Positions 1 to 19,021 of a DNA stretch of 64,000 nucleotides are shown here, piece after piece (position 1 is the stretch's first letter; the number at the start of each line of letters is the position of its first letter). The DNA is taken from assembly GCF_003054705.1 (NCBI RefSeq), contig NZ_QAYX01000018.1:124001-188000 (forward strand), written 5' to 3'. The DNA is from Opitutus sp. ER46. Its GTDB lineage: Bacteria > Verrucomicrobiota > Verrucomicrobiia > Opitutales > Opitutaceae. The notes beneath the pieces were generated by a model. That model worked only from the letters and a program-made list of their open reading frames with translations, had not been told where the DNA came from and did no database searches. Position numbers and translations under genes: made by a program.

Positions 1-49
1 ATGCCAGCCCTTCCACTCTCGCGTCCGTCGCTCCCTCTCCCACCCGTCG

Positions 50-1621
50 ATGTCCTTCACCCGTCTCCCCCTCGGCCAGCCCATCCCGGCCCGCCCGCAC
101 GCGGTCTCCTGCAGCCTGCCGACGATGCAGGACGTCCTTGGCTACGAAGAGAAGAACCCGGCGACGATGCGGCACGTCGGCTCGGCGTACCCGCGGTTTG
201 TGGTGCATCCGTTTGCGCGCCAGCTCGCCCGCCATCTCGCCGAAAACCGCCCGGAGCTGGCCGGGCGCACCTTGTGGCTGACCTCCTCCGCGCGAATGGC
301 CGAGGCGCTGATCGCCTGCCTGGGCGACGGGGTCGGGGCCAAGCGCTTCGAGGACGGTCGCGTGCACGGGGTGTCTCACCCGGCGGACGCCGCCGACGTC
401 GCACAGAAGGCGAAGGTCTTCCTGCAGAACATCGGGGGCTTCCTCAGTTCGCGCGAGGCCGAGGACGAACTGGTCGCGCGCCGGGTCCTGCCGGGCGCCG
501 CGCCAGAAACGCTTTTCGCCGGCAACGCCGCCGCCGAGGTGCGCCGCTGTCTCCAGCCTGCCTTTCCCGAGTGCGCGGCAGCCGACCTGCTGCTCGCCAA
601 CACGGGCATGAACGCGATGTACGCCGCATACCGCGCCTCGGCCGAACTCCAGGCGGCGCGCGGCCGCACCGTGTGGATCCAGCTCGGCTGGCTGTACCGG
701 GACACCATCGCCATCCTGCAGCGGTTCGCGTCCAAGCCCGACGACTACGTCTATCTCCGCGACCCGCTCGACGAGGAGGCGATCACGCGGATTTTCCAGC
801 GCTTCGGCGCGCGGATCGCCGGCGTCGTTTCGGAGCTGCCGACGAATCCGCTGATCCAGACGCCCAATCTCGCGCTGCTGGGCCGGCTGTGTCGCCAGCA
901 CGGCGCGCACCTGCTGGTGGATCCGTCGGTGGCGTCGCCGTACAGCGTCTCGGTGCTCCCGGAGGCCGACCTCGTGATCAACAGCCTCACCAAGTACACG
1001 GCGAGCGAGGGCGACATCATCGCGGGGCTGGTGGCGGTGAATCCGGCCGGGCGTGATGCCGCCGCGCTGCGCGCGCGCGTGGCCGAGCTGCTCGAGCCGG
1101 TGTATCCGCGCGACCTCGCCCGCCTCGCCGCGGAGATTGGGGAGACGGAGACGGTGCTCGCGACGATCCAGCGCAACGTGGCGCAGGTCGTCGGGTTCCT
1201 GGAGCAACACCCGGCGGTGCGCGAGGTATTCTGGGCGCGGCACGCGGCGTCGCGGGAGAACTTTGCGCGGATCGCACGCTTGCCCGCCTCAGCCGGCGGC
1301 ATGCTGTCCTTCACCTTGCGCGTGCCGATGACGCCGGTGTACGACGCCCTGCGGCTGCCGAAGGGCCCGAGTTTCGGGATGAAGACGACGCTCCTCTGCC
1401 CCTTCATCTATCTCGCCCACTTCGAGCTCGCGACGACGCCCGCGGGCGTGGCGGAACTGGCGGCGAGCCGGATCGATCCCGAGCTGCTCCGCCTTTGTGT
1501 CGGCACCGAGCCCGCGGAGGAAATCATCGGCGCGCTCGCCGAAGCCCTCGCCGCCGGAGGCCGGACGTCAGACGTCAGATGTCAGACGTCGGAGGTCAGA
1601 AGCCTGAAGCCTGAAGCCTGA
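50..1621 (+). CDS. cystathionine gamma-synthase-like PLP enzyme (STR2-like)
   Basis: A PLP-dependent enzyme of the Cys/Met metabolism family, 523 residues, expected to make or exchange thioether bonds on activated homoserine. Near the N-terminus it shows PLGQPIPARPHAVSCSLPT, then GYEEKNP and YPRFVVHP. This arrangement is the one I know from fungal STR2-type cystathionine gamma-synthases rather than from short bacterial MetB. The PLP lysine is K315 in NSLTKY, preceded by LVDPSVASPYS for the cofactor region. The ATG at 50 fits the family N-terminus, but the frame is open to the window edge, so an upstream start cannot be excluded. The last 19 or so residues (from RTSDVR) are encoded by a 7-bp DNA repeat array and are probably not ancestral; the family normally ends near ALAAGG. 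Family certain, exact substrate not. Confidence 0.85.
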   Translation: MSFTRLPLGQPIPARPHAVSCSLPTMQDVLGYEEKNPATMRHVGSAYPRFVVHPFARQLARHLAENRPELAGRTLWLTSSARMAEALIACLGDGVGAKRFEDGRVHGVSHPADAADVAQKAKVFLQNIGGFLSSREAEDELVARRVLPGAAPETLFAGNAAAEVRRCLQPAFPECAAADLLLANTGMNAMYAAYRASAELQAARGRTVWIQLGWLYRDTIAILQRFASKPDDYVYLRDPLDEEAITRIFQRFGARIAGVVSELPTNPLIQTPNLALLGRLCRQHGAHLLVDPSVASPYSVSVLPEADLVINSLTKYTASEGDIIAGLVAVNPAGRDAAALRARVAELLEPVYPRDLARLAAEIGETETVLATIQRNVAQVVGFLEQHPAVREVFWARHAASRENFARIARLPASAGGMLSFTLRVPMTPVYDALRLPKGPSFGMKTTLLCPFIYLAHFELATTPAGVAELAASRIDPELLRLCVGTEPAEEIIGALAEALAAGGRTSDVRCQTSEVRSLKPEA

Positions 1622-1775
1622 GGCCGGAAGCCAGAGGCCAGACGTCAGACGTCAGATGTCAGATGTCGGAAGCCAGAGGCCGGAGGCCTGAAGCCAGATG
1701 TCAGATGTCGGAAGCCTGAACCCAGAAGCCTGAATCCAGAGGACAGAGGACGGCCAGATGGCAGAAGCCAGAGGC
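1562..1775 (+). repeat. heptad repeat array 1
   Basis: Twenty-seven uninterrupted in-phase 7-bp units run from 1562 to 1750, followed after a short break by three more. The consensus is C(A/G/T)GA(N)G(C/T); units include cagacgt, cagatgt, cggaagc, cagaggc and ctgaagc. The array starts inside the end of the preceding gene and runs past its stop codon at 1619-1621. It has the same orientation as that gene. It is not CRISPR, because there are no spacers. Confidence 0.9.
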
Positions 1776-1805
1776 CAACCGACGAAGTCCCAAGACCTGC
1801 CCCTT

Positions 1806-1834
1806 CTTCCGTTTTCGCGCAGCGAAAACGGAAG
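1806..1834. other. 13-bp hairpin downstream of the SYLF gene
   Basis: A perfect 13-bp inverted repeat (arms 1806-1818 and 1822-1834) with a GCA loop. It lies 8 bp past the stop codon of the minus-strand SYLF gene. No T-run follows on either strand, so it is not a classical intrinsic terminator, although it may protect or end the transcript. Confidence 0.7.
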
Positions 1835-1842
1835 CCGGAAGC

Positions 1843-2532
1843 TCAGGGCGCGATGCGGCGGACGAGGTTCATCAGCGGGATGACCTCGGGGGCGACGCTG
1901 GCGGACGGCTGCACCCAGTCGCTATAGAGCAACTCGGGGAGGCTGTAGCTCGTGTTGTAGAGAACGAAGTTCGCAGCGTCGTCGCGGGAGATGTGACCCG
2001 CCTTGACCGTCGCGCCAGCGTAGAGACCGACCGAGCGGGAGTAGGCCAGGATCGGCGCCTCGAGGATTTCCTTGTTATAGGCTTCCTTCATCGCGGCTTT
2101 CGGGCCGGCGACCGCCTTGACGTCAGCGCCGATGTTGAAGCGCTGATTGAACAGCAGCTTCGGGATGGCGGGATCGGTCACCACGAAGATGCTCTCGACG
2201 GCGTTGGCGCCCAACTGCAGGCCGAGGCTCGCTTCACCGGCGCGGATGACAACCGGAACGCTCCAGGTGTTGTCGTCGCGACGGACCATGATGACGCCGT
2301 AGCCGTCCTTCACGCCGAGGAACACGCCGGCCTTGAACTGGTTGAGAATGATGAGGGCCTTGGCGCGCTGGAGAATCTGCGGCGGGATGGCCGTCTCCGG
2401 GCGGCTCTGGAACTGCTGGAGGACCGCCTCGCAGGACTCGACCCGCTGGACGATCTCGGTCCGCGTCTGATTGGCGCGCGCGAAACCGGCGGCGAACAGC
2501 GTAACAAGCGACAGCATCAAGAGCTTCTTCAT
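1843..2532 (-). CDS. SYLF-domain (Ysc84-like) lipid-binding protein
   Basis: A secreted protein of 229 residues. The start is the ATG at 2532 (MKKLLMLSLVTLFAAGFARA), which gives a clean signal peptide; the reading frame extends further upstream through repeat DNA but without support. The rest matches the SYLF/Ysc84 family: an N-terminal helical part (EIVQRVESCEAVLQQF, PPQILQRAKALIIL), then the glycine-rich core FKAGVFLGVKDGYGVIMVRR, and GLQLGANAVESIFVV. Bacterial SYLF proteins are usually periplasmic or outer-membrane associated and bind lipid; no enzymatic activity is expected. It stands alone between repeat arrays. Confidence 0.85.
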   Translation of the reverse strand: MKKLLMLSLVTLFAAGFARANQTRTEIVQRVESCEAVLQQFQSRPETAIPPQILQRAKALIILNQFKAGVFLGVKDGYGVIMVRRDDNTWSVPVVIRAGEASLGLQLGANAVESIFVVTDPAIPKLLFNQRFNIGADVKAVAGPKAAMKEAYNKEILEAPILAYSRSVGLYAGATVKAGHISRDDAANFVLYNTSYSLPELLYSDWVQPSASVAPEVIPLMNLVRRIAP

Positions 2533-2631
2533 GGAAATTGAGATAGGACCGGAATCTAGGCACGGCCGGATGGAATTGAAAAGCCGCGAATGGCGACAGG
2601 CTGGGCGCGCCAGCGGTTCCCGTTGCTGGAG

Positions 2632-2722
2632 CAGAAGCCGGAGGCCGGAAGCCGGAGGCCGGAAGCCGGAGGTCGGAAGCCTGAAGCCGGAAACCTGAAG
2701 CCGGAGGCCGGAAGTCAGTCGC
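2632..2722 (+). repeat. heptad repeat array 2
   Basis: About 13 in-phase 7-bp units (cagaagc, cggaggc, cggaagc, ctgaagc and similar) in plus orientation, about 100 bp upstream of the SYLF gene. Unlike the other four arrays it does not follow a stop codon. It forms the left edge of the inverted-repeat element at 2632-3279. Confidence 0.85.
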
Positions 2723-2725
2723 CGC

Positions 2726-3116
2726 CCTGTCCACGGAAGCCTCGGCGAAGGCCAGAGGCCGAAACCAGAGGCGCGAGACGCAGCCCGGCTCGACTTGCAA
2801 GTATATGGCTCGTCGGTCGTTGGTCCGCCGGACCGCCTCCCGCGGGCTGCCATAAGTCTGCCCACCTTCGCTTCGCTCCACCGGCCTCGAAACTGAGATA
2901 ACACGCCAAATCTGGCGTGTTATCTCGGATTGGCCGAGCGTCCGGACGAGTCCTTCTGCACCACGGCGCGGATCGTGGGGGGACGGCGCGACGTGTCGGT
3001 CGACCGGGCTGTGGCGCGCACGGCGCACCGCCGCCCTCCGGCTCCTGGCCTCCGTCATCCTCCGGCCTTCCACATTCGCCAAGGCTTCCACCTTCGCCAA
3101 GGCTACGGTGGACAGG
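2726..3116. repeat. inverted repeat pair bounding a MITE-like element
   Basis: The 26 bases at 2726-2751 and at 3091-3116 are inverted copies of each other with 23 of 26 matches. They sit just inside heptad array 2 (plus orientation) and heptad array 3 (minus orientation), so the whole 2632-3279 segment is roughly symmetric. The right arm also carries a tandem copy of TTCGCCAAGGCT (3075-3086 and 3093-3104) and of GGTGGACAG. There is no transposase gene inside. I read it as a non-autonomous or decayed mobile element; this is an inference. Confidence 0.55.
2895..2926. other. 14-bp perfect palindrome
   Basis: Arms 2895-2908 (GAGATAACACGCCA) and 2913-2926 are perfectly complementary with a 4-base loop. 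The palindrome is near the centre of the inverted-repeat element and there is no gene within it. No T-run follows, so a terminator role is unlikely. It could be a protein-binding site or a transposition-related structure. Confidence 0.7.
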
Positions 3117-3160
3117 ACGGTGGACAGCATGCCCCGACGTGCCGGCACCTCGGCCAGCTG

Positions 3161-3300
3161 ACCTCTGACGTCTGACATCCGACATCTGCCTTCTGGCTTC
3201 TGACCTCAGGCTTCCGGCTTCTGACCTCAGGCTTCCGGCTTCCGGCCTCCGGCTTCAGGCTTCCGGCCTCTGGCCTCAGTCCTTCAGCATTCAGCCTTCG
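3161..3300 (-). repeat. heptad repeat array 3 (reverse orientation)
   Basis: Seventeen in-phase units from 3161 to 3279 with less regular units to about 3300, written on the plus strand as gcttccg, acctctg, gcttctg and so on, i.e. the reverse complement of the array 1 unit. It ends at the stop codon (3303) of the minus-strand metallopeptidase gene and is therefore in the sense of that gene. Confidence 0.9.
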
Positions 3301-3302
3301 CC

Positions 3303-3674
3303 TTATTCCAGTCCCCGGGCGGCGACGTCGTCTTCGTCCCAGCCGAGGTAATGGCCAAGTTCGTGCAAGTAGGTCGTCCGCACCTCGTCCTTGTACACTT
3401 CACGATCGCCCTCGGCGAAGTCCCAGAGGTTCTCCAGGTAAAGCTGGATCTGCGGCGGCATCGGGTTGTCGTGCGCCAGCTCGGTGCCGTGGGCATCGCC
3501 GGAGAACAAGCCGAGGATGTCGGGCTCGAAACCCTCCGCCAGCACGTCCGCCGCCGGCGTCGCCTCGTAGTGGACAGCCACCCCGCGCGCGACCTGCCGG
3601 ATCTCGGGCGGCAGTTGACGTTGGGCGGCGCCGACCACGTCGACCGCGATCTGGGTGAGTTCGGCGAGTTTCAC
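3303..3674 (-). CDS. zincin-like metallopeptidase family protein
   Basis: A small protein of 123 residues with HELGHYLGWDEDD near its C-terminus (about 104-116), a HExxHxxGxxE zinc site of the kind found in the short bacterial 'possible zinc metallopeptidase' (zincin_1, formerly DUF1025) family. The length fits that family. The first in-frame start that leaves the preceding gene is a GTG at 3674, 14 bp after the ABC permease stop, so it is probably the last gene of the ABC operon. The upstream sequence has a TAATG overlapping the permease stop, but it is out of frame. No signal peptide; cytoplasmic. Natural substrate unknown. Confidence 0.8.
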   Translation of the reverse strand: MKLAELTQIAVDVVGAAQRQLPPEIRQVARGVAVHYEATPAADVLAEGFEPDILGLFSGDAHGTELAHDNPMPPQIQLYLENLWDFAEGDREVYKDEVRTTYLHELGHYLGWDEDDVAARGLE

Positions 3675-3687
3675 GGCGGCAGCGGCA

Positions 3688-5439
3688 TTACTCGCGCAGT
3701 TCCTCGGCGACGTCGATCGCCTCGAACCTGCGGCCGAGCCACCATACGCCGAGGCACACCTCCGCCACCAAGACGAGGAGCACCGGAATCGCGGCGGCCG
3801 CAATCGCGACGGCCAGCGGCATCACGAACTGAAACAGCCAAAGCAGCCCGGCACCGACCCCCGCGGCCGGCAGGAGGACCAGGACCATCGTGAGCATCTG
3901 GGCGAAGAAATAGATCATGCGCTGCCCCATCACCTCCGGCCCGGCCGCGCCGCGGTGCTGGACCTCCACCCAACTGGGAAACAGGAGCGCCGCCGTATTC
4001 GGCACGAGGAGTTGCAGGACCGTGACCGGCACGATCGCGATGGCCGCGGTGAGGCCAAGGCTGACGCGGACGCCCGGCGTGAGCCACCCGATCGTCATGC
4101 GGGCGTCGATGTTCCAGAGCGCCACCAGGAGCGCGAGCCAGGTGATGCCGACCAGGATCGCCGTGGGGGCCAGCAGCTCACCCAGCACGATCTGCCAGCC
4201 GGTGAGCGGATACGTCTTCAGGACGTCGAGCTTGCGCATGTCGCCGCGAATATCCTGCCGGGCGAACTGCGGGCCGACGATGAGCAGGTACGCCCCGCCG
4301 CCGAGCGCGATCCAGGCCGCAGTCTGGGCGAAAACCGCGAGCCCCGGCTGCAGGCGCACGATGAAGCTCGCGGTGCCGATCAGGATGACCGCGGCGCCGA
4401 AGACCCGGAGATTGAAGTAGGGCCAGGTCGACAGGAGGTTCTTCCAGAAGAACGCGATTTCCGGCCGGCCCACTGAGCCGAGTTCGAACGGCGCCGGGCG
4501 CGCGACCGCCTCGGTCGTCCCCAGCCGCCGCTCACCGGAGCGCCACGCCGCCACCCGCGCGGCGCGCTTCTCGGCCTGCGCGATGGAGGCGTCCTCAAAC
4601 GATACCGCCGCCTGCACGACCCAGAAGTAGTGCGCGACGATGACGCCGAGCGCGGGCCCGAGCGCGAGCAGGAAGGCCAGCGGGTTGCCGGCAAAAAAGG
4701 GCGCGAGCACCCACTGCAGCGGCAGCAGGAGCCAGCTCAGCGGCGCGGTGTGCCCGATCGCCGTCAGCCAGTCACGCAGCCCCGCCGGATCCGCGGGCAA
4801 GCGGAACCCATCCGGGATCCGCGCGAGACTGATCACGATGATCGCCACGAGGGCGCCCAGCACGACCAGCCGCCGCAGCAGCACGTTCACCCCGCGATCG
4901 GTCCAGCGCGTCACCACGAACCCCGCGCCTGTGAAGTGCAGGTTCATCACGCTGAAGAAGAGCCACCAGCCCACGAGCCGGGGCCAGGCCGCGTGGCCCG
5001 CCATGCTCCAGCGGCTGGAGAGCAGCGCCATGACGAGACTGGCGCCGAGCGTGCGCACCTGCGCGGTGAGGAGCCGGTAGTGCACAAGCCGCCGCCGGGT
5101 GATGGGTGCCGGAAAGAGAAACGCGATCTCGGCCTCGGAGAACCCGAGCGCGGCGCGCGCCCGCGGCACGATCCAGGCACAGGCCAGGACGACCAGCAGG
5201 ACGAGCCCGCCGATTGCGAGCGCCGCCGGCAGCCATTGCTGCGGAAACGTCGTCGCCATGGCGCCCGCGGGCATCCGGCCCCGCGGCCCCTGCAGCGCGT
5301 GGCGGAAGAAGAAAAAATACAGGTACGCGACGCCCACGACGGCGCCGACGAGGTAGCGCGGGCGCCGCAGCCGCCGCACCCGCCACAGCACCCAGTTTCG
5401 GAACGACGTGAGCCGAAGATAAAGCAGGGCCCGGATCAT
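3688..5439 (-). CDS. ABC-2-type exporter membrane subunit
   Basis: A 583-residue membrane protein starting MIRALLYLRLTSFRNW with many hydrophobic segments (for example VGAVVGVAYLYFFFF, LAIGGLVLLVVLACAWIVP, ALVAIIVISLARI, and several at the C-terminus). It resembles the 'putative ABC exporter' permeases that pair with a short CcmA-type ATPase. That ATPase gene lies 7 bp upstream on the same strand, so the two form one exporter. A conserved middle region (GRPEIAFFWKNLLSTWPYF, about 320-340) precedes the second membrane block. Substrate cannot be read from the sequence. Confidence 0.8.
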   Translation of the reverse strand: MIRALLYLRLTSFRNWVLWRVRRLRRPRYLVGAVVGVAYLYFFFFRHALQGPRGRMPAGAMATTFPQQWLPAALAIGGLVLLVVLACAWIVPRARAALGFSEAEIAFLFPAPITRRRLVHYRLLTAQVRTLGASLVMALLSSRWSMAGHAAWPRLVGWWLFFSVMNLHFTGAGFVVTRWTDRGVNVLLRRLVVLGALVAIIVISLARIPDGFRLPADPAGLRDWLTAIGHTAPLSWLLLPLQWVLAPFFAGNPLAFLLALGPALGVIVAHYFWVVQAAVSFEDASIAQAEKRAARVAAWRSGERRLGTTEAVARPAPFELGSVGRPEIAFFWKNLLSTWPYFNLRVFGAAVILIGTASFIVRLQPGLAVFAQTAAWIALGGGAYLLIVGPQFARQDIRGDMRKLDVLKTYPLTGWQIVLGELLAPTAILVGITWLALLVALWNIDARMTIGWLTPGVRVSLGLTAAIAIVPVTVLQLLVPNTAALLFPSWVEVQHRGAAGPEVMGQRMIYFFAQMLTMVLVLLPAAGVGAGLLWLFQFVMPLAVAIAAAAIPVLLVLVAEVCLGVWWLGRRFEAIDVAEELRE

Positions 5440-5446
5440 CGTGGGC

Positions 5447-6178
5447 TCAGCTTTCGCTTCCGCCGGTCGCGCGGATGAACACGTCCTCGAGGTTCACGTC
5501 CGCCTCTCCGTTGCTGAATTGCGCGGCCACCTCCGGCAGCGAACCGGCGGCAATCTTCTCGCCCCGCTTCAGGATGAGCACGTGCGAGCAGACCTCCTCC
5601 AGCAGGTGCAGCAGGTGGGAACTGAGCACGATCGTCGCGCCGGCCTGCGCGCGCTTGATGATCGAGTCTTTCATGCGCCGGATGCCGAGCGGATCGAGCC
5701 CGGTCAGCGGCTCGTCGAAGAACATCACCTGCGGCCCATGCAACAGCCCGCAGGCGATCGCCAGCTTCTGCTTCATGCCGCGCGAAAGCTCGCTCGGGAG
5801 CTGGTCGGCCTTGTCGGCGATCTCCAGTTCCTCGAGCAGCGGGCGGGCGACGTCCTCGTGGTCGGGCACGCCGTAGAGCCGCGCCACAAACCCGAGGTGC
5901 TGCCGCACGGTGAGGTATTCAAACAGCCGCGGCTCGTCGGGGAAGAAGGCCAGCGCGCGCTTCGCCGCGACCGGGTCCCGCGCCATGTCGTGGCCCGCGA
6001 TCCGCACCGTGCCGCCCTGGTACGGCACGATGCCCGCCAGACAGCGCAGCGTCGTGGTCTTGCCGGCGCCGTTCGGCCCGACCAGGCCCAGCACCTCGCC
6101 GGGGCGCACCGTAAACGACAGCTCCCGCACGGCGGGAAAGTTCCCGTAAGACTTGGCCAGGTGATCCACCTCGATCAT
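5447..6178 (-). CDS. ABC transporter ATP-binding protein
   Basis: An ATPase of 243 residues from the ATG giving MIEVDHLAKSYGNFPAV; a longer frame exists upstream from a TTG at 6307 but the extra 43 residues do not look like ABC protein. Walker A is GPNGAGKTT, the signature is LSRGMKQKLAIA, Walker B is VMFFDEPLTGLDP, and the switch histidine is in LSSHLLH. This pattern is that of the ABC-2 exporter ATPases. It is followed 7 bp later by the membrane subunit. Transported substrate unknown. Confidence 0.88.
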   Translation of the reverse strand: MIEVDHLAKSYGNFPAVRELSFTVRPGEVLGLVGPNGAGKTTTLRCLAGIVPYQGGTVRIAGHDMARDPVAAKRALAFFPDEPRLFEYLTVRQHLGFVARLYGVPDHEDVARPLLEELEIADKADQLPSELSRGMKQKLAIACGLLHGPQVMFFDEPLTGLDPLGIRRMKDSIIKRAQAGATIVLSSHLLHLLEEVCSHVLILKRGEKIAAGSLPEVAAQFSNGEADVNLEDVFIRATGGSES

Positions 6179-6327
6179 CGGCCGGGACCGTGGCAGCCGG
6201 CGCCAAATCCGCAAGTCTCCGAAAACCGCGAAACTCCTGCCCCGGTCATCCGTCATACCGCGCACGCTCGGATGACTCTCGTCAACCGGGCCGTTACCCA
6301 GATCCAATCACGTCAGCTCATCCCAAT

Positions 6328-6717
6328 ATGAAACTTTGCCGTCCGCTCCTCGCCGCCTGTGCGTTGGGCCTCGTCGCCCAGACTTCCTCCCTCCTCGCTG
6401 AGGACAACGCGCCGCCGCCTCCCCCGCAGGGTGAACACGCCAAGGGCCCGCGCGGGCCGATGACGCCGGAGGCCTATATTCAGCGCATCGAGAAGGCCGT
6501 CGGCCCGCTCACGACCGAGCAGAAGACCAAGATCACCGACATCCTCGCCGACACGAAGAAGAAGATGGAGTCGGTGAAGCCCGACGAGGGTCGCGAGAAA
6601 TTCCGCGAGCTGATGCAGGCGCAGCAGGCCGCGGTGCGCGCCGTGCTCACCGCCGAGCAGCAGACGAAGTTCGACGCCATGCCGCGGCCGGGACCGCGCG
6701 GCAAGCGTCCGGAGTAA
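6328..6717 (+). CDS. LTXXQ/Spy-like periplasmic protein
   Basis: A small secreted protein of 129 residues. The ATG at 6328 gives a signal peptide (MKLCRPLLAACALGLVAQTSSLLAE); the frame is open further upstream over the ABC gene but without a signal. The mature part is helical and carries two LTXXQ-type motifs, PLTTEQKTKITDIL and VLTAEQQTKFDAMP, spaced as in the Spy/CpxP group of periplasmic chaperone or stress proteins. A clear relative lies at 28127-28588. It is divergent from the ABC operon and ends at a good intrinsic terminator. Confidence 0.75.
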   Translation: MKLCRPLLAACALGLVAQTSSLLAEDNAPPPPPQGEHAKGPRGPMTPEAYIQRIEKAVGPLTTEQKTKITDILADTKKKMESVKPDEGREKFRELMQAQQAAVRAVLTAEQQTKFDAMPRPGPRGKRPE

Positions 6718-6744
6718 GCCAGATTTGTCAGGGGTTGGTGTTAC

Positions 6745-6782
6745 AGCCGCCGCGGATCGCAGCCCGCGGCGGCTTCCTTTTA
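6745..6782 (+). terminator. intrinsic terminator of the Spy-like gene
   Basis: An 11-bp perfect GC-rich stem (6745-6755 with 6764-6774), an 8-base loop and a following TCCTTTTA tract. It is 28 bp after the stop codon and sits between two convergent genes. Confidence 0.85.
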
Positions 6783-6837
6783 TCCGGAAACCGCGCGGCG
6801 GCCGACCGCCCCCCCGGCCGGCCGCCCCACCCCGCGC

Positions 6838-11622: not shown

Positions 11623-11789
11623 GAGGGCGGGAGTTGAGGAGCCGTGGGGCGGCAGCGATCGGCGCGATGCGCTGCTCCCGCCGGGGAAAGACTCCCGGAT
11701 TGTTAAGCTACGGTTCGGCGGGGCCGCCGAAATTGTTAAGCCGGGGTAAAGGCTGGTACTTCCGGGACGAAACCGCGTCGAAACGGGAC
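11623..11789. promoter_or_regulatory. divergent intergenic region with direct repeats and hairpin
   Basis: This is the space between the CotH gene (minus) and the VTC gene (plus), so it must hold both promoters. ATTGTTAAGC occurs twice (about 11699-11708 and 11732-11741), on either side of an 8-bp hairpin (11714-11721 with 11724-11731). The repeats could be a shared operator. No convincing -35/-10 pair was identified. Confidence 0.4.
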
Positions 11790-12605
11790 ATGCGCCCCGA
11801 CCTGCTGCAGCAACGACGCTTTGAGCTGAAGTACCGCGTGAAAGAGTCCACCGCGGCGGCCATTCGCGCGCACGTCCGGAGTCACCTCGTGCCCGACGAG
11901 TACGCGGCGGGCCAGCCGGACCACGCCTACGCCGTCCACAGCCTGTACCTCGATTCCGCGGACCTGCGGCTGTATCACGCGACGCTCAACGGCGACCGAA
12001 ACCGCTACAAGCTGCGGTTGCGGTACTACGACGACGCGGCGAATGCCCCGGTGTTCTTCGAGATCAAGCGCCGCGAGGACCACTGCATCCACAAGCAGCG
12101 GGCGGCGGTGCGGCGCTCCGCGCTGCACGCGCTGCTCGCCGGACGCTGGCCGGGGCCGGCCGATCTCTTCGGCAGCAGCCCGCGGCAATTGCTCGACCTC
12201 CAGGAGTTCAGCCGGCTCCTCCAGCACGTGCGCGCCCGGCCGCAGGCGCGCGTCATCTACCGGCGGGAAGCGTGGATGTCGCCGTGGGACAACTCCGCGC
12301 GCGTCACCTTCGATCGCGACGTGCGCAGCCTCCCGCACCGCACGGAGGAGCTGACGCTCGAAGACCGCGGCGCCGTGCGACCCTTCGGCGAGGAGGTGAT
12401 CTTCGAGATCAAGTACACCGACCGCATGCCGGCCTGGGCGGCGGAACTGGTCCACGTCTTCGAATTGGTGCAGAGCGGTGCGGCCAAGTACGTCGAGGGG
12501 CTCCATTCCTCCGGAGCGACACGGCCGCCCTCCCCGGTCGCCGGGCACAGCGCGACCGACAGCCGCCAGTTCTGGGCGGCCGACCGCGCGAGCGTGCCGG
12601 TCTGA
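11790..12605 (+). CDS. VTC-domain polyphosphate polymerase
   Basis: A protein of 271 residues from the ATG at 11790 (MRPDLLQQRRFELKYRV). It shows the VTC/CYTH-like tunnel-fold motifs: RFELKYRV, SLYLDSADLRLYHATLNG, RYKLRLRYY, VFFEIKRRED and, near the end, EEVIFEIKYTDRMPAW. In characterised VTC proteins these basic and acidic residues bind polyphosphate, nucleotide and metal and make polyphosphate from ATP. The next gene, 52 bp on, encodes a DUF4956 membrane protein, and CotH, VTC and DUF4956 genes commonly travel together. Activity is inferred from the family. Confidence 0.85.
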   Translation: MRPDLLQQRRFELKYRVKESTAAAIRAHVRSHLVPDEYAAGQPDHAYAVHSLYLDSADLRLYHATLNGDRNRYKLRLRYYDDAANAPVFFEIKRREDHCIHKQRAAVRRSALHALLAGRWPGPADLFGSSPRQLLDLQEFSRLLQHVRARPQARVIYRREAWMSPWDNSARVTFDRDVRSLPHRTEELTLEDRGAVRPFGEEVIFEIKYTDRMPAWAAELVHVFELVQSGAAKYVEGLHSSGATRPPSPVAGHSATDSRQFWAADRASVPV

Positions 12606-12657
12606 AGGGCGGCCGCAGCGCCACTTTTTCCGCCAACCCTCAACTCCTCCTCCGCGC

Positions 12658-13344
12658 ATGCTCGATTTCTTCGTCCGAGGTGACTACGGCGCCACGCCCG
12701 CCAGCTTCGAAACGGTGCTGCTGGCGCTGCTGCTGGCCTTCCTCCTCGGCCTGGTGATGGCCTGGGCCTACATGACCTGCCACAGCGGTGGTTCGTACTC
12801 CCGCGCGTACGTCGTCTCCCTCGTGCTCATGCCCGTGATCGTGGCGCTGGTGCTGTCGGTGCTGAGCAACAACCTCGTCACTGCGTTCGGGCTGATGGCG
12901 GTCTTCGCGATCGTCCGTTTCCGCAACATCCTCCGCGACACGCTGGACACCGCCTACATCCTGGCGGCAATCGTCGTCGGCATGGCGTGCGGCTCGCAGA
13001 AGTACGCGACGGCGGTGGTCGGCTGCGGCGTGATCCTGCTCGTGGTGATCGCGCTGGCGCTGACGCAGTTTGGTCGCCGCAGCCACTACGACCTGGTGCT
13101 CAACCTGCACTGGGCCAGCCCCGTGGCGCGGCTGGGCGAACTGCAGGCCCTCCTGGACCGACATGCGTGGCGCGCGGTCTGCGCCCATCACCAGCCCACC
13201 CCCGACGGCTCCGGCATCGATCTCTCGTACCGGCTGCTCCTGCGCGATCCAGACCGGCGCGAGGAACTCCTGCGCGAGCTCGGCGCGCTGGCGGGCGTGT
13301 CGTGCCTCGCCAGCATCACCGCCCACGACGACTCGGAGATCTGA
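12658..13344 (+). CDS. DUF4956 membrane protein
   Basis: A protein of 228 residues with four predicted transmembrane segments in the first 140 residues (TVLLALLLAFLLGLVMAWAY, AYVVSLVLMPVIVALVLSVL, a segment around AFGLMAVFAIVRFRN, and ATAVVGCGVILLVVIALAL). The soluble tail has an ACT-like look (HYDLVLNLHW, SYRLLLRDPDRREELLREL). FAIVRFRNILRDTLDTAYI is the characteristic DUF4956 stretch. The adjacent VTC gene suggests it helps or channels the polyphosphate polymerase at the membrane, but the function of DUF4956 is not established. Confidence 0.85.
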   Translation: MLDFFVRGDYGATPASFETVLLALLLAFLLGLVMAWAYMTCHSGGSYSRAYVVSLVLMPVIVALVLSVLSNNLVTAFGLMAVFAIVRFRNILRDTLDTAYILAAIVVGMACGSQKYATAVVGCGVILLVVIALALTQFGRRSHYDLVLNLHWASPVARLGELQALLDRHAWRAVCAHHQPTPDGSGIDLSYRLLLRDPDRREELLRELGALAGVSCLASITAHDDSEI

Positions 13345-13347
13345 CCC

Positions 13348-14445
13348 ATGCCGACGCCGCCGCCCCCCATTCCCGTTTCGCGCCGCCAGCGCTGGCGCGA
13401 GTTCAGGCACCGCGTGCTGCCATTCCTGCTTTTTGCCGGCAGCCTGGCCCTGGTGACCGTGCTCTGGCGCCGTTCGGTGGCCCCACCCATGTTCGTCGCC
13501 ACCGCCGAGGCCGACCAGACCGAGGTGCGCTCCGTGGCCGGCGGCTGGCTCTCGAGTCTCGACGTGGAGGTCCTGCAGCCCGTCGAAGCGGGCGCGGTGC
13601 TGGGCCACGTCGTCACGACGGATCCGCGGGTCCTGGAGGCCTCGCTCGGCGTCGCCCGCGCCGAGCTGCAGTTGCTGACCGCGAGCCTGGAGCCGGCGCT
13701 GAACCAGCAGCGGATCGCGGTCGATCGCGACCGGTTGAACCTCGAGTGGATGCAACAGCGCGTCGAACTCGCGTCGCTCCGCGTGCGCGTGACGCAGGCG
13801 GCGAGCGATCTCGCCCGGTCCGCCAAGCTGCACGCGCAGCACATGGTGACGGACCAGGAGCACGAACTCGCCCGCACGACGCACGACGAGCTCACCGCCC
13901 AGTTGCACGAGACCATGGCGCTGGTGGCGAAGCTGGCGCCGAAGTTCGATGCCACCGCGCCCGAAGCGATCCCGACGCCATCGGTGCAAGGCACGCTCTC
14001 GGCGGCGCTCCGGCTGGAAGAGGAGAAAGTCCGGCTGATCGAGGCGCAGCTCAGTCCCCAACCGCTGCGCGCGCCGCGCGGCGGCGTGGTCTCGGCGGTG
14101 TTTCGCCGCGCCGGCGAAGGAATCGTGAGCGGCGAATCGATCGTGCGCATCACGGGGACCCGTCCGCTGCGGCTCGTGGGCTACCTGCGCCAGCCGCTGC
14201 CGCTCGAGCCGCGGCCCGGCATGCTCGTCGAGGTGCGTTCGCGGCAGTTCCAGCGCCGCGTCGCCCAGGCGAAAATCGTGCAGGTCGGCACCGCCATGGA
14301 ATTCCTGCCCGCGCCCGTGCTCGCCGCGATGCGCATCCCCGTCACCGCCGAGCCATCGGAGCTCGGGCTCCGCATTCATCTTTCGCCCGTGGAGGAACTC
14401 GGGCTGCGTCCCGGCGAAATCGCTGACGGCATCATTGTGAAGTAA
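13348..14445 (+). CDS. HlyD-like membrane fusion protein
   Basis: A 365-residue protein starting 3 bp after the DUF4956 gene. It has one N-terminal membrane segment (LPFLLFAGSLALVTVLW), a first half-lipoyl part (VRSVAGGWLSSLDVEVLQPVEAGAVLGHV), a coiled-coil hairpin (about 90-230, many Q/E/L heptads), a second half-lipoyl part (LRAPRGGVVSAVFRRAGEGIVSGESIVRI) and a beta-barrel end (LRPGEIADGIIVK). This is the layout of HlyD/EmrA adaptors. There is no transporter gene of its own; the MacAB set downstream has its own adaptor, so the partner here is unclear. Confidence 0.8.
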   Translation: MPTPPPPIPVSRRQRWREFRHRVLPFLLFAGSLALVTVLWRRSVAPPMFVATAEADQTEVRSVAGGWLSSLDVEVLQPVEAGAVLGHVVTTDPRVLEASLGVARAELQLLTASLEPALNQQRIAVDRDRLNLEWMQQRVELASLRVRVTQAASDLARSAKLHAQHMVTDQEHELARTTHDELTAQLHETMALVAKLAPKFDATAPEAIPTPSVQGTLSAALRLEEEKVRLIEAQLSPQPLRAPRGGVVSAVFRRAGEGIVSGESIVRITGTRPLRLVGYLRQPLPLEPRPGMLVEVRSRQFQRRVAQAKIVQVGTAMEFLPAPVLAAMRIPVTAEPSELGLRIHLSPVEELGLRPGEIADGIIVK

Positions 14446-14668
14446 AAGTGCAGGTGAGAGTGAAAAGGCGGGCGGACTGGAGTGAAGCGGGAGTGAAGTG
14501 AGCAAACGGGCCCCGAGCCGCCGGCCCCACCTTCCTCCATTATCATAAACCGCCGCGTCTCGGTGGTTTATAATCCCCCATCCCGGATTATCCCGGCCTG
14601 ACAGCATTTCCGGCGGGGTTCGTGGCACGGCCCTCGTCGGTCCGCGCCGCGGCCAGCACGCTCCGGCC
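14446..14668. other. intergenic spacer with purine-rich tract and hairpin
   Basis: Directly after the HlyD-like stop, 14450-14511 is a purine-rich tract with repeated GAGTGAA/GTGAGAG words. It resembles, in reverse complement, the pyrimidine tract at 59357-59465. Near 14547-14573 an imperfect hairpin (ATAAACCGCCG with CGGTGGTTTAT) is followed by a short C-rich run. The macA-like promoter is probably in this space but was not identified. Confidence 0.4.
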
Positions 14669-16177
14669 ATGATCAAGCGACTCGTTCCGTGGATCGCGTT
14701 CCTGCTGCTGGCCGGGGGCGCGCTGCTGTGGTGGCGCCGTTCCACCGGCGCCGCGACCGCCTCCCTGGTGTTTCGAACCGCCACGGTGCAGCGCGGGGAT
14801 GTGACGCAGACCGTCACGGGCAGCGGCTCGCTTTCGGCGCTCATCACCGTCGATGTCGGCAGCCAGGTGTCGGGCAACATCGCGAAGCTGTATGTGGATT
14901 ACAATGACACGGTGAAGGCCGGCCAGCTCCTGGCGGAGATCGAGCCGACGACCTATGAGGCCAAGGTTTTCCAGGCGGAGGCGGACCTGCTGTCGGCGCA
15001 GGCCGCCCTCGATCTCAAGCAGCTTGCCGTGCGCCGCGCCAGCGAGCTGCTGGGCCGGAAGCTGCTCTCGCAGTCGGACTACGACGACGCCGCGGCCGCG
15101 CTGCGCCAGCAGGAGGCCTCGTTCAAGAAGGCGACGGCGGCGATGAAGAGCGCCAAGACCGACCTCGACCGCTGCAAGATCTACTCCCCCGTGGACGGCG
15201 TCGTGCTGAAGCGCACGGTGTCCGCCGGCCAGACCGTGCAGTCGAACTACAACGTTGCCACCCTCTTCACGATCGCGCGCGACCTGCGGCAGATGGAAAT
15301 CGAGGCGGCGATCTCGGAGGCGGACATCGGCGGCGTGGAGGCCGGGCAGGCGGTGACCTTCACGGTCGACGCGTTTCCCGGGCGCTCCTTCCAGGCGAAG
15401 GTGCGGCAGATCCGCAACAACTCCACCGTCTCGAACAACGTCGTCACGTACCCGACCATCATTTCGGTGGACAACGCGGACCTGAAGCTGCGGCCCGGGA
15501 TGACGGCGAACGTCGTCATCGCGACGGCTCGTCGCAGCCACGTCCTGCGCGTGCCCAATGCCGCGTTGCGCTTCAAGCCGCCGGAGGGGGCGTCCGTGCT
15601 CGCGGCGGCGGAGGCGAATGGCCCGGACGGCGCCGGCGGGCCGCCGGCCTTCGACCGCCTGCCGGACGAGATCAAGCAGCGCATGCTGGCCGACTTTGAC
15701 AAAAACGGCGACGGCCGCCTCGACGCCGACGAGCAGAAGACGATGCAGGCGACGCTGCGCAACCGGCGCGCCGCGGCCCAGGGCAGCGCGGGTGGGTTCG
15801 GCCCGCCCGATGGCGGCATGGGCGGCCCGCCTCCGGGGGGCGGTGGTCCGGCCGGGGGCGGCGCCGGCGGCGGATCGGGCGGCAGCGCCCGCGTGGTGCG
15901 CGCCGCCGGCTCGGCCGTCGACCACTCGCAGCCCGTCACCGTGTACGTCGTGCAAGGCACACCCGATGCCGCAGGACGAGCCAGCGGTGCGCTGCAGCCG
16001 AGGCCGGTCTTTGTCGGCGTAAGCGACAGCACGTACACCGAGATTCTCTCCGGGATCGAGGAGGGTGCTGTCCTCGCCAGCGGCACGCTGTCCGCGCAGC
16101 AGCTCGCGACGACGCCGGCGAAGACCGGCACGAACAACCTCTTTGGTCCGCCGCGCCCGCCCGGCGCGCGCAAGTGA
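14669..16177 (+). CDS. MacA-like efflux adaptor with EF-hand insertion
   Basis: A 502-residue periplasmic adaptor anchored by one N-terminal helix (LVPWIAFLLLAGGALLW). The lipoyl halves are TVDVGSQVSGNIAKLYVDYNDTVK and YSPVDGVVLKRTVSAGQTV, separated by a coiled-coil hairpin (about 95-165). The beta-barrel region contains GMTANVVIATARRSHVLRVPNAAL. This is the MacA/RND-adaptor plan. An unusual insertion follows before the last strand: an EF-hand-like loop DKNGDGRLDADE at 344-355, then a Gly/Pro-rich linker at about 375-405. The stop overlaps the start of the ATPase gene by 4 bp, so the three genes form one macAB-like operon. Substrate unknown (peptide, lipid or antibiotic in known MacAB systems). 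Confidence 0.85.
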   Translation: MIKRLVPWIAFLLLAGGALLWWRRSTGAATASLVFRTATVQRGDVTQTVTGSGSLSALITVDVGSQVSGNIAKLYVDYNDTVKAGQLLAEIEPTTYEAKVFQAEADLLSAQAALDLKQLAVRRASELLGRKLLSQSDYDDAAAALRQQEASFKKATAAMKSAKTDLDRCKIYSPVDGVVLKRTVSAGQTVQSNYNVATLFTIARDLRQMEIEAAISEADIGGVEAGQAVTFTVDAFPGRSFQAKVRQIRNNSTVSNNVVTYPTIISVDNADLKLRPGMTANVVIATARRSHVLRVPNAALRFKPPEGASVLAAAEANGPDGAGGPPAFDRLPDEIKQRMLADFDKNGDGRLDADEQKTMQATLRNRRAAAQGSAGGFGPPDGGMGGPPPGGGGPAGGGAGGGSGGSARVVRAAGSAVDHSQPVTVYVVQGTPDAAGRASGALQPRPVFVGVSDSTYTEILSGIEEGAVLASGTLSAQQLATTPAKTGTNNLFGPPRPPGARK

Positions 16178-16956
16178 GCCGCGACCCGCACGCCATGCAA
16201 CCGGTCATCGAGATCACCGACCTGCACCGCATCTACCAGACGGGGGGTGCGCCCGTGCATGCGGTGCGCGGCGTGTCGCTGCGCGTGATGCCGGGCGAGT
16301 TCGTCGCGGTGATGGGCGCGAGCGGCTCGGGCAAGTCGACGCTGATGAACACGCTTGGCTGTCTCGACCGCCCGACGCGCGGCTCGTACCGGGTCGACGG
16401 GACGGATGTGTCGGCGCTGGACAGCGACGCGCTCGCCGCCATCCGCAACCGCAAGATCGGTTTCGTCTTCCAGGGCTTCAACCTCCTGGCCCGCACCACC
16501 GCGCTCGAAAACGTCGAGCTGCCGATGCTCTACGCGCACCCGCCGCTGCCGAGCGGCGAACTGCGGGCGCGGGCCTTGCACGCGCTCGCCCAGGTGGGGC
16601 TCAGCGACCGCGCCGACCACGTGCCGAGCCAGCTCTCGGGCGGGCAGCAGCAGCGCGTCGCAATCGCGCGGGCCCTCGTGCTCGGACCTTCGCTCCTGCT
16701 CGCCGACGAGCCGACGGGAAACCTGGATACGCGCACCAGCATCGAGATCATGGGCGTGTTCCAGCAGCTCAACGCCGCGGGCATGACCGTCGTGATGGTC
16801 ACGCACGAGCTGGACGTCGCCCGCTTCGCCCGCCGCATGATCGTCATGCGCGACGGCCGCGTGCGGCGGGACGAGCCGATTGCCGCGCGCGCGGCGGCGG
16901 CGACCGAGCTGGCCCGCGTCGCGGCGGAGGAACAGGCCGCGGAACTCATCCCATGA
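16174..16956 (+). CDS. MacB-type ABC ATPase
   Basis: An ATPase of 260 residues. The GTG at 16174 overlaps the upstream stop (GTGA); an ATG seven codons later (16195) is an equally plausible start. Walker A is GASGSGKST, the Q-loop is in FVFQGFNLL, the signature is LSGGQQQRVAIARAL, Walker B is LLLADEPTGNLD, and the switch histidine is in MVTHE. These are the LolD/MacB group motifs. It is separate from its permease, which starts in a 4-bp overlap at its end. Confidence 0.9.
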   Translation: MSRDPHAMQPVIEITDLHRIYQTGGAPVHAVRGVSLRVMPGEFVAVMGASGSGKSTLMNTLGCLDRPTRGSYRVDGTDVSALDSDALAAIRNRKIGFVFQGFNLLARTTALENVELPMLYAHPPLPSGELRARALHALAQVGLSDRADHVPSQLSGGQQQRVAIARALVLGPSLLLADEPTGNLDTRTSIEIMGVFQQLNAAGMTVVMVTHELDVARFARRMIVMRDGRVRRDEPIAARAAAATELARVAAEEQAAELIP

Positions 16957-18173
16957 AACGTCTGCTCGCCATTCTGCGCGTCGCCCTCCGGGCGCTCCGA
17001 CGCAACGTCCTGCGCACCTTCCTCACGATGCTGGGCATCATCATCGGCGTGGCCGCGGTGATCGGCATGGTGAGCATCGGCACCGGCGCGCGCGTGCAGG
17101 TCGAGCAGCAGATCGCCGCGCTGGGGCAGAACGTGATCATGGTCATGGCCGGCAACATGAGCCGCGGCGGGATGTTCTCGGGCATGGGCGGCGCGCCGAC
17201 GCTGACGCTCGAGGACGCGTTCGCGTTGCGGAACGAAGTCGACGGCGTCGCCACGATGAGCCCCGAGGTGCGCGGCAATGTGCAGGTCGTGGCCGGCAAT
17301 CTGAACTGGAACGTGCAGGTGATGGGCGTGAGCCACGAGTACCTCGACCTGCGCGCCTGGCCGCTGAGTGAGGGCGACTTTTTCACCGAGCAGGACATCC
17401 GCGCGAGCACCCGTACCTGCGTGCTCGGCCAGACCACGGCGAAGAAGCTCTTCGAGGACGCCAGTCCGATCGGCGCCGCGGTGCGCGTGAAGGGGATCCC
17501 GTTCACCGTCGTGGCGGTGCTCGCGCCGAAAGGCTCGAACATGATGGGCCAGGACCAGGATGACGTCGTGTTTGTCCCTTACTCCACCGCGATGCGCCGG
17601 CTCTTCGGGCAGAATTTCCTGCGCGCGATCAACCTGGGCGCGGCGAGTCCCGATCGGATCAAGGACGTCACGACGCAGGTGGCCGAACTGCTGCGGCAGC
17701 GGCATCGCATCCAACCCGGGCGCGACGACGATTTCATGGTGCGCACGCAGCAGGAGATCACAGAGTTCGCGACCTCGACGGCGAAGACGATGACCGGGCT
17801 GCTGGGCGCGATCGCCGGTGTGTCGCTGCTCGTCGGCGGCATCGGCATCATGAACATCATGCTGGTGTCAGTCACGGAGCGCACGCGGGAGATCGGCATC
17901 CGGCTGGCGGTGGGCGCGCGGCGACGCGACATCCTGCGGCAGTTTCTGACCGAGGCGGTGGTCTTGAGCATCGCCGGCGGGCTGGTCGGGATCGCGACCG
18001 GCGTGGGCGTTTCGATGGCGCTCGCGGCGCAGTTCAACTGGCCGACGCTGACGCCGACGTACGCGGTCGCGGGAGCGTTCCTCTTCAGCGCGATGGTCGG
18101 CGTGTTCTTCGGCTACTACCCGGCGAGGAAAGCCGCGCAGCTCGATCCCATCGAAGCACTGCGGTACGAATAG
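16953..18173 (+). CDS. MacB-type ABC permease
   Basis: A permease of 406 residues from the ATG at 16953, which overlaps the ATPase stop (ATGA). It has the MacB topology: a first membrane helix (RTFLTMLGIIIGVAAVIGMVS), a periplasmic domain at about 45-280, then three C-terminal helices. Typical motifs are GGIGIMNIMLVSVTERTREIG and GYYPARKAAQLDPIEALRYE at the end. With the adaptor and ATPase it forms a mechanotransmission exporter needing a TolC-like outer-membrane protein, which is not encoded nearby. The stop codon is followed after 2 bp by heptad array 4. Confidence 0.9.
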   Translation: MKRLLAILRVALRALRRNVLRTFLTMLGIIIGVAAVIGMVSIGTGARVQVEQQIAALGQNVIMVMAGNMSRGGMFSGMGGAPTLTLEDAFALRNEVDGVATMSPEVRGNVQVVAGNLNWNVQVMGVSHEYLDLRAWPLSEGDFFTEQDIRASTRTCVLGQTTAKKLFEDASPIGAAVRVKGIPFTVVAVLAPKGSNMMGQDQDDVVFVPYSTAMRRLFGQNFLRAINLGAASPDRIKDVTTQVAELLRQRHRIQPGRDDDFMVRTQQEITEFATSTAKTMTGLLGAIAGVSLLVGGIGIMNIMLVSVTERTREIGIRLAVGARRRDILRQFLTEAVVLSIAGGLVGIATGVGVSMALAAQFNWPTLTPTYAVAGAFLFSAMVGVFFGYYPARKAAQLDPIEALRYE

Positions 18174-18175
18174 GT

Positions 18176-18294
18176 CAGAAGCCGGATATCAGGAGCCAGA
18201 TGTCGGACGTCAGATGTCAGAAGCCTGAGGCCGGATATCCGAAGCCAGAGACCGGGAACCGGAGGCCGGATGTCAGATATCAGAGGTCAGACGT
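18176..18294 (+). repeat. heptad repeat array 4
   Basis: Seventeen in-phase 7-bp units (cagaagc, cggatat, cagatgt, cggacgt, ctgaggc and so on) start 2 bp after the MacB permease stop, in the sense of that gene. They face array 5 across a 59-bp spacer. Confidence 0.9.
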
Positions 18295-18353
18295 CAGCGT
18301 CAGACTAGGCCCGGCTGTCCGCCGCACCCTTGCGGGCCTCTGGCATCGGTTTG

Positions 18354-18423
18354 GCTTCCGACCTCTGACATCTGGCCTCTGGCTTCTGACATCTGGCCTC
18401 CGGCTTCCGGCTTCTGGCCTCCG
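18354..18423 (-). repeat. heptad repeat array 5 (reverse orientation)
   Basis: Ten in-phase units in reverse complement (gcttccg, acctctg, acatctg, gcctccg) end 3 bp before the stop codon of the minus-strand Cys-rich gene, in the sense of that gene. Arrays 4 and 5 together fill the space between two convergent genes. Confidence 0.9.
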
Positions 18424-18426
18424 TAA

Positions 18427-18702
18427 TTACTTCTTCTTGCAGCAGCCTTCCTTCTTCTCGCCCTCGGCGCCGGCCGGGCACTGCTTCTTTTCGCCCTTCT
18501 GGCAGCAGGCGGGTTTGTTGGCCTTGTCGCACTTCGCACAATCTTTGCCCTCGGCTTTGCACTTGGCCTTCATCTCGGCGCAAGCAGCGGCACTCGGGCA
18601 TTCCTTGGTAGGCTGGGCGGGCTTGGCCTGGTCTGCGGCGTAAGCGGCGAACGCAAAGGCGGCCAGGGCGAAGGAAGCGGTGAGGAGGGTACGGATTTTC
18701 AT
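18427..18702 (-). CDS. small secreted cysteine-rich protein
   Basis: A 91-residue protein from the ATG at 18702 with a clear signal peptide (MKIRTLLTASFALAAFAFAAYA). The mature part of about 68 residues has ten cysteines, including CAKC and two CC pairs (ACCQK, GCCKKK), among many lysines. This composition suggests periplasmic metal binding, and the gene lies just downstream of a metal efflux operon on the same strand. I do not recognise a named family. Disulfide-rich structure is an alternative. Confidence 0.7.
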   Translation of the reverse strand: MKIRTLLTASFALAAFAFAAYAADQAKPAQPTKECPSAAACAEMKAKCKAEGKDCAKCDKANKPACCQKGEKKQCPAGAEGEKKEGCCKKK

Positions 18703-18955
18703 GAAGTTGAAACAGGGGATTGGCTTCGTAACTACACTCAAACCAGACCCTTACCAGCCGATTCTGATCAGCTCGCATCCTCTTGAACGAAACCTCCAGC
18801 CGCAAACGACTGCCGGCCACCCGTCCGTGGATCGGCGCCTCCGCCCAACCCGCCGCCGCCCCTGCCCTGCGTCGCGCCGCCTGAGCAGTCAGGCTGGTTG
18901 CGTCAAAGGTCTATACGCCTGGTCCTGTCCCGCCGCGGGCAGAGCCGCAGCTAGA
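18703..18955. other. intergenic region upstream of the Cys-rich gene
   Basis: No coding sequence is supported here. It must contain the promoter of the Cys-rich gene on the minus strand unless that gene is read through from the RND operon past the palindrome at 18956-19014. No clear promoter motif was found. Confidence 0.3.
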
Positions 18956-19014
18956 TGTGACGCCGTGACGGCCTGACCCCATTTCCGACGGGGTCAGGCC
19001 GTCACGGCGTCACA
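18956..19014. repeat. 25-bp perfect palindrome after the RND pump gene
   Basis: The arms 18956-18980 and 18990-19014 are perfect 25-base complements around a 9-base loop. The right arm ends 7 bp from the RND pump stop codon. The arms include TGACCCC/GGGGTCA and CGTGACG. No T-run follows, so although it would stop or stabilise an RNA end, its length and perfection look more like a REP- or MITE-type palindromic element. Confidence 0.8.
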
Positions 19015-19021
19015 CGCAAGG

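Follow-up and report, generated by a model that had tools for sequence, protein, structure and literature searches.

Intergenic heptad-repeat arrays in Opitutus sp. ER46 face the nearer gene with their 5' edge

Introduction

A 64,000-bp stretch of the genome of Opitutus sp. ER46 (hereafter the window; G000:C18:124001-188000, where G000 is this genome of 5.71 Mb in 25 contigs) carries five tandem arrays of a degenerate heptad, C(A/G/T)GA(N)G(C/T). An earlier note on the window had placed four of them at stop codons in the sense of the adjoining gene, and had argued for a transcribed 3'-end role or an insertion mechanism that targets gene ends. Here we show that the general rule is another one: the 5' edge of an array faces the nearer gene, and the agreement with gene sense is a by-product.

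Results

All five window arrays were recovered by pattern and by a trained two-strand heptad hidden Markov model (HMM), from which the coordinates in Table 1 are taken and which shifted the boundaries first given for them slightly. The exact in-phase runs within the five comprise 23, 12, 10, 8 and 5 units, the longest of them at 1555-1715 in array 1; the figure of 27 copies given earlier would need imperfect units to be counted. In 100 order-2 Markov shuffles of the window no tolerant array arose and the longest exact run was 2, and a scan of the whole genome gave 493 matches to the four-unit pattern against 0 for the reversed control; the arrays thus greatly exceed what chance would give.

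Table 1. Heptad arrays of the window (HMM boundaries) and genes adjoining them in sense
Feature	Position	Strand	Remarks
Array 1	1553..1777	+	26 conforming units, 10 kinds; supplies the present stop codon TGA 1619-1621
Array 2	2632..2718	+	11 conforming units, 6 kinds; left arm of a wide inward pair
Array 3	3158..3283	-	16 conforming units, 11 kinds; right arm of the pair with array 2
Array 4	18172..18297	+	10 conforming units, 8 kinds
Array 5	18335..18423	-	11 conforming units, 6 kinds
Pyridoxal phosphate (PLP)-dependent enzyme gene (Cys_Met_Meta_PP)	50..1621	+	residues 502-523 encoded by array 1
MacB/FtsX-type permease gene	16953..18173	+	stop codon partly array sequence
Zincin-like metallopeptidase gene	3303..3674	-	behind array 3
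Small gene	18427..18702	-	behind array 5; no Pfam match

Four arrays do adjoin stop codons in the sense of the gene behind them (the PLP-enzyme, zincin, FtsX and small genes, which share no common theme). Array 3 lies 19 bp beyond the zincin stop and array 5 lies 3 bp beyond that of the small gene, while array 2 (+) is found 114 bp upstream of the called start (2517) of a Ysc84 gene (-), in the opposite sense. Arrays 2 and 3 form an inward pair with a spacer of 439 bp, and arrays 4 and 5 form another with a spacer of 37 bp.

Placement was studied in 1.85 Mb of modelled sequence, made up of eight blocks totalling 1.65 Mb (200 kb from the start of each of contigs C19-C25, together with 248 kb of C18, picked regardless of arrays save that C18 is the contig with the window) and a remainder centred on pattern-listed arrays. 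The model found 65 arrays, 39 of them inside the eight blocks, with a median length of 81 bp or 11.6 units, HMM and pattern both being weak at short arrays. Our own coding-potential gene caller assigned 58 of the 65 to a gap between genes; the other seven were dropped because they lay within or across a called gene, in a gap above 1500 bp, or near the end of a stretch.

In 52 of the 58 arrays the repeat reads away from whichever gene is nearer; random placement gave a mean of 29 and at most 43. The enrichment at stop codons in sense that the earlier note proposed to tabulate also holds in the larger sample: in 33 of 58 arrays the 5' edge is at most 30 bp from the stop of the gene behind, whereas 2000 random placements averaged 4.4 such arrays and never exceeded 13. 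In addition, 24 of the 38 arrays with a gene 3' end behind them have their 5' edge at -4 to +9 bp from the stop. The remaining 20 of 58 have a gene 5' end behind them, to which they are antisense, and co-directional gaps hold 11 sense and 13 antisense arrays, so gene sense is not the rule. The 5' edge thus often stands against selected sequence, either a stop codon or the region 41-192 bp before a called start (17 of the 20 arrays; 2, 9 and 282 bp in the rest), with the array reading into the gap. Because arrays are directed away from the nearer gene, two that share a gap are directed inward: among 20 adjacent pairs, 18 are plus-then-minus, one is plus-plus, one is minus-minus and none is outward. 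Arrays occur in 12 of 100 convergent, 8 of 441 co-directional and 4 of 157 divergent gaps (gaps of at least 80 bp, eight blocks), and 27 of the 58 lie between convergent genes. Taken together, the away-from-nearer-gene rule and the inward pairs are not covered by a role specific to 3' ends or by insertion aimed at stop codons, so that the earlier interpretation is supported in part.

Array edges were also compared with relatives. Proteins of genus relatives align to the PLP enzyme up to about residue 501-507 of 523, a few to 510-518, and in 11 relatives the stop falls at the equivalent of residue 502 (nine), 503 (one) or 505 (one). Residue 502 corresponds to base 1553, the HMM start of array 1; it follows that the array encodes the last 22 residues and that one of its units provides the TGA now used as stop. 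At the FtsX gene (TAG 18171-18173) array 4 starts at the second base of the stop codon and supplies its last two bases; the relative G023, whose FtsX protein is 90% identical, has a TGA stop and lacks the array at that site. Similarly, the array at G000:C18:196748 follows directly on a stop codon where G023 has a gap of about 40 bp. In all nine convergent gaps with both arms, from all sequence examined, the non-array flanks total -44 to 25 bp, whereas the median is 93 bp for the 153 convergent gaps of the eight blocks that lack arrays, 19% of which measure 25 bp or less.

Arrays of this motif were not seen by eye in G023 at the two compared sites, nor in the first 70 bases past the PLP-gene stop of 11 relatives. 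Site sharing was further examined for three genes in five relatives each (by their sequences presumably ferredoxin oxidoreductase beta, UPRT and a COG0523 family member), using the 8 of 15 flanks whose printed end matched the C-terminus of the gene; none of the eight showed an array of this motif at the same site by eye, and two (G019 and G008) showed another period-7 wording by eye. In G023 the HMM found no array in the 400 kb searched, and the exact four-unit pattern is absent from its genome.

On average, arrays are slightly less regular in their inner part. In the 46 arrays of at least 63 bp the 3' (inner) half is the less regular in 24 and the 5' (outer) half in 10, with 12 ties (P 0.024), and of 28 phase shifts 22 are located in the array middle or farther inward, one of them past the called inner end.

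The HMM units have C1, G3, A4 and G6 fixed at 0.93-0.99, with G, A or T at position 2, any base at position 5 and mainly C or T at position 7. Because the HMM favors its own motif, the column test was repeated on the 84 non-coding stretches that a search for period 7 alone picked out in the eight blocks (56 of them overlap arrays), although phase and strand were still set with the motif. Major-base fractions at positions 1-7 of the 56 overlapping stretches were 0.87, 0.56, 0.88, 0.80, 0.52, 0.79 and 0.63. Positions 5 and 7 are linked (0.26 bit); self-complementary heptads with GGCC or ACGT cores were considered as the cause and rejected by reasoning, the commonest ending, AGC, being unfit. Outside arrays, gap autocorrelation had no clear peak at period 7 in this genome or in 400 kb of G023.

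Higher-order repeats are present, and the array at G000:C18:196748-196872 has a run of 14 identical CGGAAGC units straight after the stop codon and a degenerate inner end; it is perhaps the youngest of the sample. These features do show recent expansion. The earlier proposal of repeat expansion followed by mutation is nevertheless incomplete, positions 1, 3, 4 and 6 being nearly fixed beside the variable 2, 5 and 7. Exact blocks of at least 28 bases are common to 32 array pairs, compared with 5-7 in three unit shuffles, which indicates that arrays also exchange or inherit blocks.

The distribution among other genomes is patchy. The four-unit pattern occurs in 11 of 57 relatives, this genome counted (493 matches here, 213 in G019, 22 in G027 and at most 8 elsewhere), and at class level 29 of 237 genomes have it; 14 of 19 congeners at least 90% complete lack an exact match. 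A 12-unit scan of named genomes found at least 114 stretches in many phyla, and the other-phyla arrays of this motif, among the matches listed, are mostly built of 1-3 unit kinds. In four relatives, 16 arrays point away from and 5 toward the nearer gene (19 match-chosen stretches), and in other bacteria 31 point away and 15 toward (46 placeable arrays among the matches listed); P is about 0.03 in each case, with some arrays coming from one genome and without correction for kinship. Placement in other bacteria relied on a crude longest-ORF (open reading frame) model applied to 116 arrays in the 114 stretches listed, and 40 arrays at stretch edges, 27 inside ORFs and 3 in long gaps were dropped. 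Relatives also bear period-7 stretches of other wording; for all period-7 stretches with a clear GA column, this motif included, the direction in relatives was 17 away and 11 toward.

Several other sequence features were noted near the arrays or in other gaps. A perfect hairpin with a 13-bp stem (CTTCCGTTTTCGC, loop GCA) and no T-run lies at 1806-1834 between array 1 and the Ysc84 gene, and another, GAGATAACACGCCA-AATC-TGGCGTGTTATCTC, lies at 2895-2926, both found by eye; of the 925 intergenic gaps examined, 12 have the core of the latter in one of two forms, and 3 of these 12 are array-bearing. By eye, the spacers 18298-18334 and G000:C14:14828-14865 both hold GGGCCTAGTCTGACG in opposite senses, and a TTCGCCAAGG...GGACAGG motif is found at 3067-3127 within the window spacer and just past the inner ends of the arrays at G000:C18:27225 and 60739. 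A GATAAC-type hairpin was seen by eye in four printed spacers, and a pattern search matched it in 3 of the 41 gaps with arrays and in 9 of the 884 without; the spacer hairpin with core CGCCAAATCTGGCG was rejected as an array-specific element, as it is not specific to array gaps. The protein of the small gene at 18427-18702 (-) is Cys- and Lys-rich by eye. Other short-period intergenic repeats are GAGTAAGAGAAA (41 of 925 gaps of this genome) and AGTGAAAGTGAG (32 of 925), an 18-bp tandem lies at window positions 59427-59463, and a dispersed motif around AGTATCTGGACATTAT, whose 12-mers occur in up to 28 of 925 gaps, resembles another repeat family.

Discussion

The arrays may be likened to the degenerate intergenic heptad repeats of cyanobacteria known as STRR (short tandemly repeated repetitive sequences). 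We tentatively favor, without considering it established or even probable, the explanation that STRR-like arrays are renewed at the edge next to the gene, up to the point where the gene is protected by selection. According to this hypothesis slippage or recombination would renew units chiefly at the 5' edge, beside the gene. Neutral flank would there be lost or overwritten as far as selection on the gene permits, while the older units, farther inward, would decay. Where a gap has arrays on both strands, each renewed at its own gene-facing edge, the outcome would be an inward inverted pair. The single-base match with stop codons makes the origin of the arrays testable.

A number of observations weigh against edge turnover. 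Of eight adjacent pairs in relatives, two are inward, six have the same direction and none is outward, and one array of this genome (on C22) ends 5 bp from the stop of the opposite gene. The relatives have diverged considerably (G023 is about 82% alike in DNA at two comparable edges, and proteins of the other relatives are 80-86% alike), so that, with no array caught growing, overwriting is inferred from the edges. Slippage alone adds units and leaves flanks in place, and overwriting hence needs an extra step. The inward decay is uneven: several phase shifts come from one array, bases outside conforming units amount to 15% in the outer third, 10% in the middle and 22% in the inner third, which is no smooth gradient, and the period-7 likeness just outside the arrays is equal on both sides (0.278 and 0.272). 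The fixed positions suggest a constraint or a template beyond what turnover alone would give. Finally, array-gene distances depend on our own gene caller, six genes having been checked against relatives.

The first rival holds that the arrays act as RNA at gene ends, transcripts being stopped or protected by long stem-loops of inward pairs and given 3' tails by single arrays. We regard this as unlikely. The excess of array gaps between convergent genes would fit it, as would predicted folds in which 30-90% of one arm pairs with the other (12 pairs with arms of at least 45 bp) and, by eye, an array at G000:C17:214042-214097 (unclassified) that is followed at once by a G+C-rich terminator-like hairpin and a T-run. 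However, the arms of a pair fit each other no better than foreign arms (mean rank 5.8 of 12, expected 6.5; permutation 0.60), and these 12 pairs gave no signal of hairpin co-evolution, a candidate we therefore rejected. Many arrays have no partner, and a gene 5' end lies behind 20 of the 58. The terminator scan of the window arrays gave one site, at 2583-2597 and thus outside the arrays, in 1400-3500 (shuffle mean 1.4) and none in 18000-19100, and no Rfam family reached its gathering score in window positions 1-20000, which also counts against an RNA role.

Ordinary slippage microsatellites, placed where they are by purifying selection against repeats in genes and promoters, are a comparably doubtful explanation. 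The few unit kinds of the listed arrays of this motif in other phyla speak for slippage, and so do the higher-order repeats and the run of 14 identical units in this genome. It predicts neither the direction of the arrays nor the inward pairs, however, and neither the edges at stop codons nor the fixed positions beside variable ones.

A third rival, additions to the 3' ends of broken DNA that are later joined like fused telomeres, would produce inward pairs with a sharp outer edge and a ragged junction. The array geometry agrees with it, and it predicted the Ku protein, which this genome has. In the 57 relatives, this genome included, four-unit matches occur in 4 of 5 genomes with Ku and 7 of 52 without (Fisher 0.0037, uncorrected for kinship); within the genus the three Ku-bearing genomes (of 27) stand first, second and fourth in the ranking for arrays, and RVT_1 is found in 6 of 7 array genomes compared with 5 of 20 others (Fisher 0.009). 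Yet no Ku hit was obtained in G027, a 98% complete genome with 22 matches, G029 bears Ku and lacks arrays, and across the class the association is weak (matches in 9 of 43 genomes with Ku and 20 of 194 without; Fisher 0.053, or 0.097 minus this genome), so Ku as a requirement was rejected. Moreover, breaks would be expected anywhere in a gap, without clustering at the stop codon. We consider this model very unlikely, and the two exceptions together with the weak class-level link lead us to favor edge turnover halted by selection.

Equally remote in our judgment is a multi-site platform for a candidate DNA- or RNA-binding protein reading C.GA.G every 7 bp. It would account for positions 1, 3, 4 and 6 being more fixed than 2, 5 and 7 in stretches found by period 7 alone, and S1, Csp and Csr proteins are proposed for another heptamer, TAACTGA, in passages of MacGregor 2015 (PMC4679880); against it stand the 14 well-complete congeners without an exact match and the lack of a common theme among the four window genes behind arrays. 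Two further candidates were dismissed: a shared core or mobile element with terminal inverted repeats, as the printed spacers (19-500 bp) hold no sequence common to all, and three-layer G-quadruplexes, as the 4xGGG motif occurs in 0 of 65 arrays and 19 GGG runs occur in 854 units (a two-layer GG motif is present in 43 of 65).

To a bolder reading we assign a slim chance: a general bacterial process might lay down GA-anchored degenerate heptads in one direction and rewrite gaps as far as the outermost base that is protected in a gene, at times with replacement of its stop, with the layout shared by Xanthomonas, this lineage and, more weakly, other phyla as its trace and with G-quadruplexes not as its cause. 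If true, rewriting of gaps up to the stop codon would bear on the origin of new C-termini and 3' untranslated regions.

Among known systems, the repetitive extragenic palindromic elements and bacterial interspersed mosaic elements (REP/BIME) are palindromic repeats that are intergenic and occur in inverted arrangements. The Opitutus arrays resemble them in both respects, whereas they lack a palindromic unit and have a 7-bp tandem structure. The STRR of heterocystous cyanobacteria are degenerate heptad repeats of several wordings.

For Nostoc, passages of Rehm et al. 2015 (PMC4692102) give GGGGA(C/T)T repeats as 68% intergenic with few inverted pairs reported, and the P6b stem of the trnL intron, in the portion of PMC4476775 used here, is built of the heptad motifs TDNGATT and NNTGAGT, which hold GA. 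As far as these sources describe them, such repeats share with our arrays degenerate, largely intergenic heptads and, in P6b, a heptad-built stem with GA; they differ in their units, in the scarcity of inverted pairs in Nostoc and in the position of P6b inside an intron. TAACTGA repeats are described, in parts of MacGregor 2015 (PMC4679880), from Beggiatoaceae, cyanobacteria and Bacteroidetes; in the Beggiatoaceae genome they lie mostly just upstream of start codons in forward sense, with 2-6 copies per set, and related heptamers are rarely repeated. On that account both systems are intergenic and patchy, sometimes with mixed heptamers, and some relatives have shorter, repeat-free gaps, whereas the unit is another one and our arrays are antisense where a start codon lies behind them (20 of 58).

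The closest counterpart is the heptamer family of Xanthomonas (GGGAATC / GGGANTN, columns 1-4 and 6 conserved). The sections of Rehm et al. 2015 (PMC4692102) drawn on here describe repeats scattered genome-wide, mostly of four units, that lie nearer to their 5' neighboring ORF whatever its strand (mean 28 compared with 160 nt); the majority are in sense no farther than 50 bp from a stop, or on the non-coding strand equally close to a start. Xcc has 70 convergent inverted pairs, repeats are under-represented between divergent genes with 16% between convergent ones, and 83% of the Xcc repeats are also found in Xac. Judged by those sections, the Opitutus arrays are alike in being scattered tandem 7-bp units with fixed and variable columns (here 1, 3, 4 and 6 fixed, when aligned on GA), in having the 5'-side gene nearer (52 of 58 pointing away), sense at stops and antisense before starts, in the convergence of inverted pairs (18 of 20) and in their rarity between divergent genes (4 of 157 gaps). 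They are unlike in lacking the G-runs for a three-layer quadruplex (0 of 65), and, within the same limits of the source, in appearing longer (median 81 bp as against mostly four units, short arrays being poorly captured here), in lying more often between convergent genes (27 of 58 as against 16%) and in having no exact match in 14 of 19 well-complete congeners as against the 83% sharing between Xcc and Xac. A published description of the present unit was not found in full-text literature searches, in which the letters of the unit were not used as a query. Those sections discuss quadruplexes as a possible basis and leave function open; the same layout with a unit lacking G-runs separates the layout from the quadruplex idea. 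The gene-edge layout is thus one already described in Xanthomonas and unexplained there, and the Opitutus unit is a new variant of it.

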